Source: a virus
DNA: 28,851 bases
Virus record (IMG/VR): IMGVR_UViG_3300044617_000517
Coordinates: 1-28,851 of that record
Reading direction: 5' to 3' (one strand)
Shown here: positions 1,282 to 19,233 of the stretch, piece by piece
How the letters are laid out: every line of letters starts with the position of its first letter
Position numbering within the stretch: position 1 is the first letter of the stretch
The notes under the pieces: model-generated
Told to the model about the DNA's origin: nothing
Database searches by the model: none
Seen by the model: the letters and a program-made list of their open reading frames with translations, nothing else
Position numbers and translations under genes: made by a program

Positions 1282-1289
1282 TATTTATC
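1282..1289 (-). promoter_or_regulatory. Candidate late promoter GATAAATA
   Basis: The minus strand reads GATAAATA, one base from the T4 late promoter box TATAAATA, and overlaps the stop codon of the lysozyme gene. It points at the secreted-protein gene, leaving a leader of roughly 130 bases. Inferred from the match alone. Confidence 0.4.
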
Positions 1290-1956
1290 CTTTTTTCCAG
1301 GCTTCACCTTCTGCCTTTCTTCTACGAGCAAGACCTGCTTCTACATTAGATCCAGGATTGCGGTAGAGATAAAGAGCATCAGGAACTAAGTCCCACTCCT
1401 TATTCTTCAGGCGTTTAGTAATAGTATTAAAGTTATCGCCGCCGTAGAAACCAGCGCCGAGATTATAAGCAAAGCTGAGCAGAGCGCCTCTTTTTCCATC
1501 TGACATTTCATTCCAATGTGGGACTTTGCGAAGTGCAGGAAGAAATTCATTCTTGCACTGCTCGATGAGAAGTGCATCTGCTTCTGCTTGGGTGAGAGTA
1601 TCACCTAGTTTAAAATGAGAACCATCCTTCTTACGGGTAGAACCCCAACCGATTGTGATTGGAAGTCCTCCAGTAAGAGGATCTGGATATGCATTTAAAT
1701 GGCATCCTTCAAACTCTTTGATTAATTTAAGTCCCATCATAGGAACATCATCACCACCTGTTACAGGAGCTGCAGCAGCGGGTGCGGATGCTGGTGCAGC
1801 ACTAGTCTTTTTTCCTCTATAGATCTCCGCCCAATCAATATTATCTTCTAGATATTTGACTGGGAGGTTATCTTCTAACCATTGAATTGCTTTAACGTGA
1901 TTGGGGTTCTTCTCGTCATAGAACTTGAAGAAGTTGTGTAAATCGATACGTGCCAT
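1285..1956 (-). CDS. GH24-type endolysin/lysozyme with N-terminal shared module
   Basis: A 223-aa protein in three parts. Residues 1-48 are an HNFFKFYD...QWLEDNLP module shared with the next gene upstream. Residues 50-70 are an Ala/Pro-rich linker. Residues 73-223 are a T4/P21-type lysozyme domain with catalytic candidates E83 (KEFEG), D92 (YPDP) and T101 (TIGWG). It should cleave peptidoglycan between MurNAc and GlcNAc. I chose the ATG at 1956 because it follows a good TAGGAG site and makes the N-terminus match the paralogue; an upstream extension to 2013 would overlap that gene. It lies 14 bases after the C39-like gene and shares its late promoter. Whether it acts in lysis or is carried in the virion is not decided by sequence. 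Confidence 0.88.
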   Translation of the reverse strand: MARIDLHNFFKFYDEKNPNHVKAIQWLEDNLPVKYLEDNIDWAEIYRGKKTSAAPASAPAAAAPVTGGDDVPMMGLKLIKEFEGCHLNAYPDPLTGGLPITIGWGSTRKKDGSHFKLGDTLTQAEADALLIEQCKNEFLPALRKVPHWNEMSDGKRGALLSFAYNLGAGFYGGDNFNTITKRLKNKEWDLVPDALYLYRNPGSNVEAGLARRRKAEGEAWKKG

Positions 1957-1970
1957 TGTTTGTTCTCCTA

Positions 1971-2642
1971 TCAGTCGAAAATTCTTCCCCAACCATCGTT
2001 GCCACCTGGGCACCAGCGATGCTTGAGAACTGCTTTAGTGTAAATGGTCTTCTTACCATTCGTTACTGGACCAGTATAGTTATCGTTGAGAGAACCATAT
2101 GGATCATTAACATAATATCCTTTGCCATCTGGGGTCTTACCAATTACAACACACATGTGCCCACCAGTAGGTGCAGAAAGAGAACCCCTATGGAGTATGC
2201 CAATAACAACGGGCTTCCCAGCGTCCAGACTTTTATCGATATCAGCAAAAGATAGATTGTAACTAAAGTGTGACTTAATACCATAACCTGCCAGAACTTT
2301 CGTCTGTACGGCATGGTCAGTAGTATCGCCAATCGCAAATACTTTCTTGACATACTCATCGTCGCCTTTAATGCTACCTGGCTTGAGGAAAGCAAGGCAC
2401 ATAGCGCACGATGAACTATTACAAGTTCTATGTGCATCTCTGTAGTTATCTACCTGATTGAAATAAGGAACTGCAAGAACTGCTGGAGTTGGTGGTTTAG
2501 TTCTAAAAATTCCAATCCAATCGGTTTCAGAATCGTCAAGAAACTGAGCAGGAAGGTTATCCTCTAACCATTGAACTGCTGCAACATGGTTTGCATTACT
2601 ATCATCATAAAACTTAAAAAAGTTATGAAGATCTAATGTCAT
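1971..2642 (-). CDS. C39-like cysteine peptidase with N-terminal shared module
   Basis: A 223-aa protein. Residues 1-48 (LDLHNFFKFYDDSNANHV...) closely match the N-terminus of the downstream lysozyme. Residues 57-223 look like a papain-fold peptidase of the C39 family: Q63 in the FNQVDN motif, C74 in CNSSSCAM, H162 in GGHMCVVIG and D180 in YVNDPYG form a plausible oxyanion and triad set. Such domains cleave peptides and often occur in peptidoglycan peptidases or toxin exporters; here it lies next to a lysozyme, so peptide cross-links are a likely target (inference). A perfect TATAAATA late box lies 26 bases upstream of the ATG. Confidence 0.75.
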   Translation of the reverse strand: MTLDLHNFFKFYDDSNANHVAAVQWLEDNLPAQFLDDSETDWIGIFRTKPPTPAVLAVPYFNQVDNYRDAHRTCNSSSCAMCLAFLKPGSIKGDDEYVKKVFAIGDTTDHAVQTKVLAGYGIKSHFSYNLSFADIDKSLDAGKPVVIGILHRGSLSAPTGGHMCVVIGKTPDGKGYYVNDPYGSLNDNYTGPVTNGKKTIYTKAVLKHRWCPGGNDGWGRIFD

Positions 2643-4613: not shown

Positions 4614-5576
4614 TTATTGACCGATACGACCAACCGCAAGACGTGCTTTATTGAGAATACTTCCCGAAAGGGGAACATATCCAAGATCATCAGCAATCGA
4701 TTGTGCCTTAGTGCTTAGAGCATAGTTGATAGCAGCGCGGATATCATCTGCCTTTGCGCCATTACCTTTCTTATATGCAAGGATCCAAGTCAGAGTAGAA
4801 ATTGGATATGCATTTACACCAGAAGGATTGGGGTTCTCTCCAGCAAGATTAGCATCTAGAGTAATACCATTCAGAGCAGCGGAACCAGTTGCAGCAGAAG
4901 GTCCGACGAACTTACCTGCCTTATTTTGAAGAACTGCTGCTTGGAGTTTGTTAGCACGAACAAATCCAGTATTCACATAACCAATCGCACCAGTAGTGTT
5001 CTTGATGGTTCCAGCAACACCTTCGTTACCTTTTGAACCAACACCAGTAGGCCACTTAACTGCCTTACCAACGCCAGGTTTCCAACCACCAAAAGCATCC
5101 AGAGAATTAGTAAAAGCATAGGTGGTTCCAGAACCATCAGAACGATATACTACATTAATAGGACCAGCGGAACAACCAAGTGCTTTCCAATCCTTAATGC
5201 GTCCAGAGAAGACATCAACAGTCTGCTTCTGGGTCAGTTTCAGTTTGCATCCAGGCTTATTATAAGCAACAGCAATCGTTCCACCAACCATTGGAATTTG
5301 AACGACGCCACGCTTCACCTTTGCTGCTTCTGCTGGTTTGATTGGTTCATCGCTTGCTCCGAAGTCAACTGTACCCGCAATAAATTGACGAACACCAGCG
5401 CCAGAACCAACGGACTGATAATTAACCCTACTCCCAGAAGTTCGTGCATAATCTTGGAACCAGCGTTGATAAATTGGTGCAGGGAAGGTGGCACCAGCAC
5501 CATTCAGAGCAGGTCCAGCAAGAGCGGCAGCAGGAGCGGCAACCAGACCAACAGCAATAAAATTTTTGAGTTTCAT
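4614..5576 (-). CDS. pstS: Phosphate ABC transporter periplasmic binding protein
   Basis: A 320-aa PstS. A Sec signal peptide (MKLKNFIAVGLVAAPAAALA) is followed by GAGATFPAPIYQRWF, the usual start of mature PstS. SVGSGAGVRQF, DFGASDEPI, RSDGSGTTYAF and GAIGYV form the phosphate pocket segments. It captures phosphate in the periplasm for the host PstCAB transporter; no transporter subunits are nearby. PstS is a known cyanophage gene controlled by the host PhoR/PhoB system, and a Pho-box-like operator lies upstream here. It is a single-gene unit between two terminators. No clear Shine-Dalgarno is seen, as in many cyanobacterial genes. Confidence 0.95.
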   Translation of the reverse strand: MKLKNFIAVGLVAAPAAALAGPALNGAGATFPAPIYQRWFQDYARTSGSRVNYQSVGSGAGVRQFIAGTVDFGASDEPIKPAEAAKVKRGVVQIPMVGGTIAVAYNKPGCKLKLTQKQTVDVFSGRIKDWKALGCSAGPINVVYRSDGSGTTYAFTNSLDAFGGWKPGVGKAVKWPTGVGSKGNEGVAGTIKNTTGAIGYVNTGFVRANKLQAAVLQNKAGKFVGPSAATGSAALNGITLDANLAGENPNPSGVNAYPISTLTWILAYKKGNGAKADDIRAAINYALSTKAQSIADDLGYVPLSGSILNKARLAVGRIGQ

Positions 5577-5610: not shown

Positions 5611-5661
5611 ATGATACTGGAAGGAAACCTTAAAGTCCACTAAGGTTTGGTTAAGGTTTCC
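5611..5661 (-). promoter_or_regulatory. Pho-box-like operator and promoter of pstS
   Basis: On the minus strand three 8-mers are spaced by 3 bases: CTTAACCA (5648-5655), CTTAGTGG (5637-5644) and TTAAGGTT (5626-5633). The first fits the cyanobacterial PhoB box well, the others partly. A -10-like TATCAT (5611-5616) lies 9 bases further, where PhoB-activated promoters have it. The same stretch holds a perfect 11-bp inverted repeat, GGAAACCTTAA at both ends (5623-5633 and 5651-5661). Control by host PhoB is inferred. Confidence 0.65.
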
Positions 5662-5670
5662 ATTACCTAA

Positions 5671-5699
5671 CAAAAAAACCACCCCTTTCTGGGGTGGTT
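5671..5699 (-). terminator. Intrinsic terminator after porin
   Basis: Minus strand: AACCACCCC, 5-base loop, GGGGTGGTT, then a T-run of seven. A strong 9-bp perfect stem 23 bases past the porin stop codon. Confidence 0.92.
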
Positions 5700-5722
5700 C
5701 CACTCAAGTTATGAGTGAGTTA

Positions 5723-7189
5723 TCAGAAACGGAAAGTGGTCTGGATTACACCACCCCAGTTAGAGGAGTTATCAGCAAGGCGCTGATTGTCGCTTCCATA
5801 GATGATAGCAGGAGTGATGCTGATGTTATCAGACACTTGATACTTGTAGAAAACTTCAAGCATCGTTGCTTTTTCGAGATCTTGACCAGTAGGTGCTTGA
5901 CCAACAGCAACACCAGCAGAGTTACCACCAACAAACACATCTTCCCACTGAAGAGCTGCCATCCAAGACTGACTATCGGTAGCAGAACTAGGAGTTCCAC
6001 TTACAGTATTCCAACCATAACCTGCAGAAACAGAGGGAACAATACCAGACTTAGAAGGTTGCCAGTATGCATTCAGAGCATAACCGTTAGAGGTTTGACC
6101 AGGAACCAGAGTTCCAGAAGAACCATCAAGACCGTTGTAAGTGCGAACACGAGTGCCTTCAGTGCCGTAACGATAACCAAATGCAGCACCCCAATTAGTA
6201 CCACGATAACCGATTTGTGCGAGAGTGTTTAGAGCACCAGTCTCATCAAACTCACCACGGGTGCTATCTTGACCTGCTTGTGCAACATAGTTTACACCAG
6301 CAACAAGACCTTTCTTACCATACTGGACGCCGAAACCAGCACCAGTTGCCTTGTTATAGACACCAGGAGTGCCAGCAACAGCAAAGAAATCGAGAATACC
6401 CGACTTGTATGCAGTAGGCATCCAGGCAATCTCGGTGTTACGAACCACAGCACCAGCAGTCAAAGTTGCTTTGTTATTAAAAGTAGGGAACTGATAATAC
6501 AAACGGTCGATAACTACGTTGTTACCAACTTCACTGGAGGTGTTGTCTGCTTTATCCAGTTTGAACAGAGAAGAGCTGGAACCAAAAGGATCACTGCTAA
6601 AATTAGCAGAACGCAGACGAGTCTTGAGCAGATCCTTACCAGTGAATGAAGTATCCAGGTTCAGGCGAAGATCGTAGTTGAATGCAGTGCGAGTGCTATC
6701 GCCACCTTTGGTATCATAACCAGGAACACCACCGAGAACAAAGTTTGCTTCACCACGCAGTTTGGTAGTGGTGGAGAATTGAGTTGCCTCAAGTTGCCCA
6801 ACTTGTGCTTCCAGTTTAGCAACAGAACCCTGGATAACAGTAAGTTCATTGCGGAACTCATCAGCAAGACGCTTGAGTTCATCAGTATTTTCAGTTACAC
6901 GATCCAGGCAAGCATTCAAGAGAGCAGCTGCCTCATAACGAGTCATTGCACGACCACCACCATAGGTGCCATTTGCATAACCAGCAACGCAACCATAACG
7001 CTCTACAAGGTTGCTGAGTGCCTGATATGCCCAGTCAGTAGGTTGCACATCAGAAAGTTGCGAAACGCTTGTAACTTGGTCAGAGGAATATTGATTGACT
7101 GCTGCCATATTAAGGTCTGCCGCATTCGCAGCAACAGGAGCAACCATTCCCAGAGCAACAGGTGCAAGCATCAGTTGTTTGAGTTTCAT
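5723..7189 (-). CDS. Cyanobacterial-type outer-membrane porin with SLH domain
   Basis: A 488-aa protein with the complete layout of cyanobacterial SomA/OprB-like porins. It has a signal peptide ending at VAANA (residues 1-23). The SLH domain spans about residues 45-100 (QPTDWAYQALSNLVERYGCV, then RAMTRYEAAALLNACLD) and would bind cell-wall polymer. A short coiled coil follows (about 103-140, LKRLADEFRNELTVIQ). The rest is a strand-rich barrel ending in Arg-Phe, the terminal aromatic needed for BAM-mediated insertion. It would form a channel for small solutes in the host outer membrane. The gene looks intact and has its own near-consensus promoter. A host origin is likely. What it carries cannot be told from sequence. 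Confidence 0.93.
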   Translation of the reverse strand: MKLKQLMLAPVALGMVAPVAANAADLNMAAVNQYSSDQVTSVSQLSDVQPTDWAYQALSNLVERYGCVAGYANGTYGGGRAMTRYEAAALLNACLDRVTENTDELKRLADEFRNELTVIQGSVAKLEAQVGQLEATQFSTTTKLRGEANFVLGGVPGYDTKGGDSTRTAFNYDLRLNLDTSFTGKDLLKTRLRSANFSSDPFGSSSSLFKLDKADNTSSEVGNNVVIDRLYYQFPTFNNKATLTAGAVVRNTEIAWMPTAYKSGILDFFAVAGTPGVYNKATGAGFGVQYGKKGLVAGVNYVAQAGQDSTRGEFDETGALNTLAQIGYRGTNWGAAFGYRYGTEGTRVRTYNGLDGSSGTLVPGQTSNGYALNAYWQPSKSGIVPSVSAGYGWNTVSGTPSSATDSQSWMAALQWEDVFVGGNSAGVAVGQAPTGQDLEKATMLEVFYKYQVSDNISITPAIIYGSDNQRLADNSSNWGGVIQTTFRF

Positions 7190-7247: not shown

Positions 7248-7277
7248 ATTATATGATCAAGTTCAATAATCTGTCAA
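7248..7277 (-). promoter_or_regulatory. Consensus sigma-70 promoter of the porin gene
   Basis: TTGACA (7272-7277), an 18-base spacer and TATAAT (7248-7253), both perfect hexamers, on the minus strand. The -10 is followed by ACTAAG, also seen after the -10 at 19794. Predicted start is near 7241. Confidence 0.85.
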
Positions 7278-18007: not shown

Positions 18008-18015
18008 TATTTATT
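18008..18015 (-). promoter_or_regulatory. Candidate late promoter AATAAATA
   Basis: The minus strand reads AATAAATA followed by TAATTC, ending 22 bases before the nucleotidyltransferase ATG and overlapping the epimerase stop codon. One mismatch to TATAAATA. AT-rich surroundings make chance matches likely. Confidence 0.35.
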
Positions 18016-19054
18016 TTTTTAATTGGGAGTTGATCCAATTATACGTTTTTTCAATACCTTCTTCTAACGTCATGCTATAATCCCATCCCAGTTCTTTACG
18101 AATCAAATCATTGTTGGAGTTACGACCACGAACACCCAAAGGTCCATCGATATGGTTTGTTTGAATAGTTTTTCCAGCAACTTTCGCAGCAGTAGATACA
18201 AGTTGATTGATAGTTACCATTTCTTCCGAACCAATATTAACTGGTCCAATAAAGTTACTATCCATCATTCTACGAGTTGCTTCAATACATTCATCAATAT
18301 AAAGGAATGAACGAGTTTGCTTACCATCTCCCCACACATCAATTACTCCTTCAATTCCTTCAATTTCTGCAACTTTACGACAAATTGCCGCTGGTGCTTT
18401 CTCTCTTCCACCTTCCCAGGTTCCTTCGGGACCGAAAATATTGTGGTAACGAGCAACCCTAACTGGAATACCATAATTGCGATGATAGGCAAAATACAGT
18501 CTCTCTGAAAAAAGTTTTTCCCATCCATATTCACTATCAGGATTTGCAGGATACGCAGACTCTTCACGACAATCAGGATTGTCAGGATCAAGTTGATTAT
18601 GCTCAGGATACATGCAAGCAGAACCAGAATAGAATATCTTGGTTACATTCTTACCAAGAAAATCATTAAACTTTCTTACCGACTCAAGAACATTCAAATT
18701 AATCGAAACTGAGTTATGCATGATGTCTGCATCATTCTCACCAGTGAAAACAAAACCTGCTCCACCCATATCAGCGGCAAACTGATAAATCTCATCAAAT
18801 GCTTGAAGATATCGTGAGGGAACAAAATTATAAAAGTTTCCTCTATCACCTTTGTATTGAATGACTCGTTCTACAAAGGTCACATCTCGCAGATCTCCAA
18901 TAACAAATTCATTTGCTTCTGTATCAGAGTATTCTGGATATTTAAGATCTACGCCACGAACCCAATATCCCTCTTCTCGCAGTCTTTTTACCATGTGACT
19001 TCCAATGAAACCACCAGCACCCAGAACAAGTGCTTTCTTTACATATTGTCCCAT
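18011..19054 (-). CDS. GDP-mannose 3,5-epimerase
   Basis: A 347-aa extended SDR that matches plant-type GME closely. Motifs are GAGGFIGSH (12-20), FAADMGGAGFVFT, SGSACMYPE, EYGWEKLFSERL, GTWEGGREKAP, GDGKQTRSF and GVRGRNSNND. The catalytic residues fall at S145, C147, Y176, K180 and K219, each two positions from Arabidopsis GME S143, C145, Y174, K178 and K217. It should convert GDP-D-mannose to GDP-L-galactose or GDP-L-gulose. I chose the ATG at 19054; the frame extends further but the upstream part is leader and terminator. It has its own sigma-70 promoter and heads the sugar operon. Confidence 0.92.
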   Translation of the reverse strand: MGQYVKKALVLGAGGFIGSHMVKRLREEGYWVRGVDLKYPEYSDTEANEFVIGDLRDVTFVERVIQYKGDRGNFYNFVPSRYLQAFDEIYQFAADMGGAGFVFTGENDADIMHNSVSINLNVLESVRKFNDFLGKNVTKIFYSGSACMYPEHNQLDPDNPDCREESAYPANPDSEYGWEKLFSERLYFAYHRNYGIPVRVARYHNIFGPEGTWEGGREKAPAAICRKVAEIEGIEGVIDVWGDGKQTRSFLYIDECIEATRRMMDSNFIGPVNIGSEEMVTINQLVSTAAKVAGKTIQTNHIDGPLGVRGRNSNNDLIRKELGWDYSMTLEEGIEKTYNWINSQLKK

Positions 19055-19079
19055 AAACAACAAAAATCCTTTAGTATGT

Positions 19080-19108
19080 ATTATACAAAAAAAGATGGGT
19101 TTATGCAA
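19080..19108 (-). promoter_or_regulatory. Sigma-70 promoter of the GME-led sugar operon
   Basis: TTGCAT (19103-19108), 17-base spacer, TATAAT (19080-19085) on the minus strand, about 25 bases before the GME start. The -35 lies partly in the loop of the terminator at 19087-19116. Confidence 0.75.
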
Positions 19109-19119: not shown

Positions 19120-19233
19120 TTATTCAGGCTCGCCACCAATTCTTTGTCTGGAAATTGGAAACCAGGCGGGAGAGAGTCCCATCCGCACCACTTGCTTTTT
19201 TATGGAGAAAGCAAGAAACCAAATGAGGGTCAA
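19120..19233 (-). other. Spacer with stacked inverted repeats and a possible 37-aa frame
   Basis: The minus strand has a TTG-started frame (LTLIWFLAFS...RIGGEPE) with GGTGGTGGAG just upstream, ending at the terminator. The same stretch holds several small hairpins: CTTGCTTT with AAAGCAAG around 19186-19215, GGGA-GAGAG-TCCC, and CTGG with CCAG. I cannot decide between a small membrane peptide and a structured RNA. Confidence 0.3.

Follow-up and report, generated by a model that had tools for sequence, protein, structure and literature searches.

Porins carried by phages are already a known kind: the Lc porin of PA-2 (Lc/NmpC type) is a precedent, and lambdoid phages have been proposed to use their own porins to displace or mask those of their hosts. 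Cyanophages are known to carry phosphate auxiliary genes that serve the periplasm, namely pstS and sometimes phoA. The closest described host proteins are the SomA/SomB/OprB-type porins of Cyanobium and Synechococcus, and the phage gene described here shares with them the SLH domain, the helix, the OprB barrel and the C-terminal Phe, with up to 58-59% identity, which for the closest true host porins extends over the full length. Also alike by description is the Prochlorococcus OprB-domain porin PhoE (PMM0709), which is tied to phosphate limitation and strongly induced under P starvation (PMC5451487, PMC3349580); PhoE, however, is a host gene, whereas the phage porin has no Pho box of its own. 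In Prochlorococcus, an organism that differs from the present hosts, Yfr1 acts on porin mRNAs (PMC6778093). A cyanophage pstS is controlled by the host PhoBR system, and the same paper warns that Pho boxes predicted in phages cannot be relied on unless binding is assayed (PMC10976474). A literature search on phage-encoded porins in cyanophages returned nothing specific and no paper discussing the present gene, and the main text of the paper on cyanophage S-SRM01 (PMC8557907) does not mention the porin of that isolate.

A predicted SLH/OprB porin in T4-like cyanophages

The window, by which we mean the whole stretch of 28,851 nucleotides analysed here (IMG/VR record IMGVR_UViG_3300044617_000517), is a T4-like cyanophage contig. 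It also encodes peroxiredoxin, ferredoxin, hli, PstS, endolysin, sugar-modification genes, gnd, zwf, talC-like and tRNA genes, part of these names having been assigned by reading the sequence. The features of the porin locus are listed in the Table. The initial annotation had described the gene as an intact SLH-domain porin, and this description holds: the reading frame is unbroken, the SLH match and the OprB match (Pfam, 2.5e-10 at residues 103-472) both exceed the curated cut-offs, a signal peptide and the C-terminal Phe (VIQTTFRF) can be read in the sequence, and the barrel is modelled. The predicted Sec-type signal, MKLKQLMLAPVALGMVAPVAANA followed by AD, comprises by eye an n-region KLK, a hydrophobic core and ANA-AD, and it is also kept in the relatives. 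The AlphaFold model shows a helix at residues 84-136 and 16 beta strands at residues 141-487, with pLDDT values of mostly 85-97 in the barrel; the SLH part is modelled poorly (pLDDT about 30-60) and the SLH call stands on sequence. The best solved structural match of the model is OprB (4gey; Z 25.4, 314 residues, rmsd 3.3), followed by general porins, OprP/OprO and OmpM at Z 21-23. The best PDB sequence match is Veillonella OmpM (8bym/8bys; 2e-14, structural Z about 21), an SLH porin that ties the outer membrane to the wall and has the same order of SLH domain, coiled coil and barrel, but which is a house-keeping protein of another bacterial phylum, and general porins score as well. Thus the window protein combines the SLH and OprB domains, the 16-strand fold and the nested tree position (see below) of cyanobacterial Som-type porins, and as judged from sequence and model the gene is a host-type cyanobacterial SLH/OprB porin, ordinary in its predicted fold and unusual in its owner.

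Table. Features of the porin-pstS locus in the window.
Feature	Position	Strand	Details
Porin CDS	5723..7189	minus	488 aa (5726-7189 plus stop), ATG start, no internal stop
Predicted signal peptide	7118..7189	minus	about residues 1-24, assigned by eye
SLH domain	6926..7054	minus	residues 46-88, Pfam PF00395, 1.5e-6
Long helix / coiled coil	6782..6940	minus	residues 84-136, AlphaFold model
16-stranded barrel	5726..6769	minus	residues 141-488, C-terminal Phe
Leader stem-loop	7219..7244	minus	AAGACCTTGAGGAAACTTAAGGTTTT with T run; lies 3' of the promoter and 5' of the ATG; resembles a terminator
Sigma70-type porin promoter	7248..7277	minus	TTGACA-18-TATAAT, 12/12 consensus matches
Intrinsic terminator between porin and pstS	5675..5701	minus	11 pairs, 6 GC, T run
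Pho-box-like region 5' of pstS	5628..5656	minus	three 11-bp steps (CCTTAACCAAA CCTTAGTGGAC TTTAAGG)
pstS	4614..5576	minus	320 aa, periplasmic phosphate-binding protein; Pfam PBP_like_2, 2.7e-40

Relatives of this porin occur, among phage genes, on at least 306 IMG/VR contigs, of which the best 80 were retained for locus analysis. Two settings recur: GT25 - porin - (pstS) - hli - ferredoxin - peroxiredoxin, to which the window belongs, and endolysin-side gene/tRNAs - porin - (pstS) - dps. Each of the phage contigs of 150-284 kb has a single copy, and the isolate S-SRM01 encodes a protein annotated as "porin" (QPX48248.1) with 70% identity over 100% of the length and a promoter plus stem-loop leader of the same kind. 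These relatives uphold the view that the gene is phage-encoded and rule out host contamination or misassembly. The freshwater origin of the group stands on S-SRM01 and the host genomes. The phage clade is uniform in length (487-492 aa, versus a host median of 545), and its SLH domain is almost invariant. The S-PM2 'putative S-layer protein' and the S-CREM1 'iron uptake porin' share the SLH and helix start (39-49% over 23-27%), but we rejected them as the same gene because they are about 280-293 aa long and the full OprB barrel is not aligned.

Elsewhere in these genomes, a wcaG RNA (RF01761, 98.7 bits) was found in the window at 19122-19223 (minus), immediately 5' of a sugar-epimerase-like gene (18011-19108), and also in S-SRM01, and an abiF RNA (RF03085) lies near the tRNA cluster in S-SRM01 and a related contig (L081 11165-11201, L067 4868-4904). 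Two adjacent cell-wall genes for a phage lysozyme and a C39-like peptidase (window 1285-2642, minus) correspond to portions of a single, longer PHROG family (phrog_3617) and thus resemble an endolysin that has been split.

Origin of the phage porin

A genome scan for host relatives yielded 79 loci. In the resulting tree the phage porins form one clade (support 98/92) with the L085 porin as its sister (100/99), and together they are nested (100/100) within a freshwater Cyanobium/Synechococcus porin subfamily, which agrees with the SomA/B-type host donor proposed earlier. L085 comes from a contig binned as an uncultured Microbacteriaceae MAG, carries ribonucleotide reductase, sigma-factor and hli-like genes, and is probably a viral contig placed in the wrong bin. 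The host sister in the best tree is L086_0 of Synechococcus 8F6 (96/87; L086 5992-7557), whose neighbours are ZnuA, CobW, iron-type ABC transporter and ferritin-like genes. However, constraining the phage porins to join a pstS-linked host clade gave a tree that was not rejected (p 0.59) and that in fact obtained a better score than the best tree. Sequence comparison therefore gives a firm donor subfamily, while the tree leaves two candidates for the exact sister, the host group linked to pstS and the one linked to metal-type genes.

Linkage of the porin to pstS

The gene that follows the window porin is pstS, whose product matches PHROG 5385 (phosphate transporter subunit; 2.6e-127). Counting the window, pstS lies within 1.4 kb downstream of the porin in 21 of 81 phage porin loci. 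The reverse scan for phage pstS gave 80 loci, 75 of them evaluable, and this porin lies just upstream in 73, the other two having just 0.5-1.1 kb of upstream sequence. Thus, in this set, pstS seldom occurs without the porin, whereas the porin occurs without pstS. Indeed, no pstS match was found in the whole 240.8 kb record of S-SRM01, where the porin, unlike that of the window, does not adjoin pstS, or in a porin-bearing phage contig of 153 kb; since such porin-only phages exist, phosphate cannot be the sole use. The same order is found in hosts: in the neighbouring host porin clade pstS is directly 3' in 10 of the 13 loci with enough downstream sequence, compared to 0/54 other host porin loci (Fisher p 3e-10, computed with 2 unlinked loci where the correct count is 3, with no change of substance). 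A CHAD-domain gene of the polyphosphate-binding type adjoins the host porin-pstS pair at L090 4893-5855 and L092 4857-5840. In a quick tree, the PstS proteins of these porin phages form a clade separate from marine cyanophage PstS, which joins a marine WH7803 protein.

The three-step 11-bp Pho-box-like repeat (consensus from PMC1906773) is kept in most phage pstS leaders and is weaker in a few. By eye, no Pho box was seen in the porin's own leader, the Pho-box-like repeat standing solely before pstS. The CTTGAG/CTTAAG repeat of the porin leader was rejected as a Pho box: it lies 3' of the -10 element and its spacing differs among relatives, so that it reads as a hairpin. The net charge calculated over the whole barrel (about -2.5) gave no signal of anion selectivity, and charge was dropped as a phosphate signature. 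Of the roles put forward in the initial annotation, altered nutrient uptake is the one favoured by the pstS link in phages and hosts, and the context suggests uptake of nutrients, most likely phosphate.

Promoter, loss of the Yfr1 target and leader hairpins

The consensus promoter noted initially is exact in the window. Phage porin promoters score 9-12 of 12 in 52 of 59 unique leaders, with shuffled sequences mostly at 8-9, so that only scores of at least 10 (42/59) stand out. Host porins have a different start. A complement of at least 8 nt to the Yfr1 loop is present at the start of 107 of 125 host porins, mostly 11-14 nt before the ATG, whereas none of the 83 phage porin leaders contains even 7 nt or more. 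Predicted Yfr1 duplexes have a median energy of -17.3 kcal/mol in hosts and -2.9 in phages (window, -8.9), and fall below -12 kcal/mol in 114/125 host leaders versus 0/83 phage leaders. Yfr1 itself was found in 4/4 host genomes checked; a phage-encoded copy was rejected, none being present in 8 phage records. In host loci the motif GTGTGAGGA, which overlaps a Shine-Dalgarno-like GAGG, was counted 94 times at porin starts and 35 times elsewhere, against about 7 expected by chance, and is thus strongly, though not exclusively, associated with porins. The 35 copies away from porin starts (L086-L163; about 5 times chance) could be other Yfr1 targets or ribosome-binding sites. From these comparisons we infer that the phage porin mRNA would escape Yfr1 repression; the site may have been lost simply as a consequence of exchanging the promoter.

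In place of the host arrangement, phage porin leaders combine the sigma70-type promoter with a stem-loop shortly 3' of the -10 element, of which several sequence classes can be distinguished. The window hairpin, which the initial annotation had omitted, belongs to class C; it is followed by a T run and resembles a terminator too, and relatives show by eye compensating changes of CCTT/AAGG to TCTT/AAGA. Class B (L081 11927-11975; L001, L004, L046, L072 and others) combines a stem of 10 bp with an invariant-type 11-nt loop, CKCAAYUAYUY; one misfit segment (L243) and two near-duplicates were left out of the set. Its stem is 85% paired compared to 22-43% in slid controls, a percentage favoured by construction because the segments were defined around the loop and the register was picked from the same sequences. 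Stronger evidence is that both partners vary in 7 of 10 pairs, with 39 such cells versus 13.8 in shuffles, although kinship alone can exceed shuffles without structure. A class B covariance model gave 29 matches in 0.84 Mb of viral loci, only before phage porins, most of these having served to build the model; it had no match in six host genomes, and the hairpin is absent from Rfam at gathering thresholds. Another leader type, seen in L221, L234, L259 and L273, shares a loop like CCTCAACTACTCG in different surroundings; it has additional hairpins and carries AGAGGTACTT 5' of the ATG.

Discussion

The reading that we favour, and consider reasonably probable, is that the phage porin is a working outer-membrane nutrient porin, most likely for phosphate, which is host-derived and freed from Yfr1 repression; expression, channel activity, phosphate preference and the gain to the phage are what we infer here. 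A T4-like phage of Cyanobium/Synechococcus-like hosts would have captured the porin from a host subfamily that commonly stands directly 5' of pstS. The host leader with its Yfr1 target would have been lost from the phage mRNA and a stem-loop leader put in its place, and during infection a strong sigma70-type promoter of the phage itself would drive transcription of the gene. As the phage mRNA has no Yfr1 target, we propose that the host's standard porin shut-off could not act on it. The protein would then be exported, tied to the cell wall via its SLH domain, and would give phosphate and other small nutrients access to the periplasm; there PstS, made under phosphate shortage, would capture the phosphate for phage DNA synthesis. 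A wider version holds that freshwater T4-like cyanophages possess a porin-plus-PstS phosphate route uncoupled from Yfr1 via porin-specific structured leaders, and that class B is an undescribed cis-regulatory RNA replacing Yfr1 with phage control; this version is tentative and, as a whole, doubtful.

Several observations sit less well with a phosphate porin. One is the terminator that separates the porin from pstS. The others would also suit a general-purpose or iron/metal-type nutrient porin, with which the phage would maintain outer-membrane permeability for many solutes as the host ceases to make porins, pstS being a convenient and not a defining partner. In the best tree the nearest host gene has Zn/Fe-type uptake genes around it, the barrel has no charge signature, the promoter looks constitutive and not Pho-controlled, and phage porins without pstS are common. 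Against this stand the near-absolute reverse link from phage pstS to the porin and the fact that the host subfamily is itself pstS-linked, and we regard such a general or metal porin as unlikely. The initial annotation had also raised receptor replacement or superinfection control, with the phage protein taking the place of, or masking, a host porin on which later phages depend. A strongly promoted, phage-encoded surface protein could act in this way, but no positive evidence emerged: outer loops diverge 1.67 times as much as strands in the phages, compared to 1.62 and 1.58 times in two host groups, the outer loops have fixed lengths without gaps in the aligned set, and they are not more variable than the periplasmic turns. 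Receptor diversification was thus rejected, loop variation showing no excess, and there is no sign of a surface arms race. Superinfection control would moreover leave the pstS link unexplained, and the phage, being T4-like, is probably lytic and would gain less from late exclusion; we consider this role very improbable. The least probable reading is that of a cargo or virion-associated outer-membrane protein, or of a hitch-hiking gene with no role in infection. It could account for the different places of the porin in different phages, but the phage porins are under purifying selection (median dN/dS 0.157 over 2141 pairs), have strong conserved promoters and conserved porin-specific leader structures, and are spread across hundreds of contigs.

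The annotation of the S-SRM01 porin predates the present analysis. To our knowledge, it is new that in these phages the pairing of pstS with the porin is near-obligate, that hosts show a matching gene order, that the phage leaders lack the Yfr1 target, and that a leader hairpin is specific to the phage porins. The leader comparison offers a case, open to direct testing, of a phage that sheds a host small-RNA target on capturing a host gene, and it also yields a porin-specific RNA element absent from Rfam. The hundreds of contigs with the porin indicate that the gene is common in uncultured relatives. An outer-membrane step would complete the phosphate route up to the host inner-membrane transporter, and these viruses would keep nutrients entering the dying cell.
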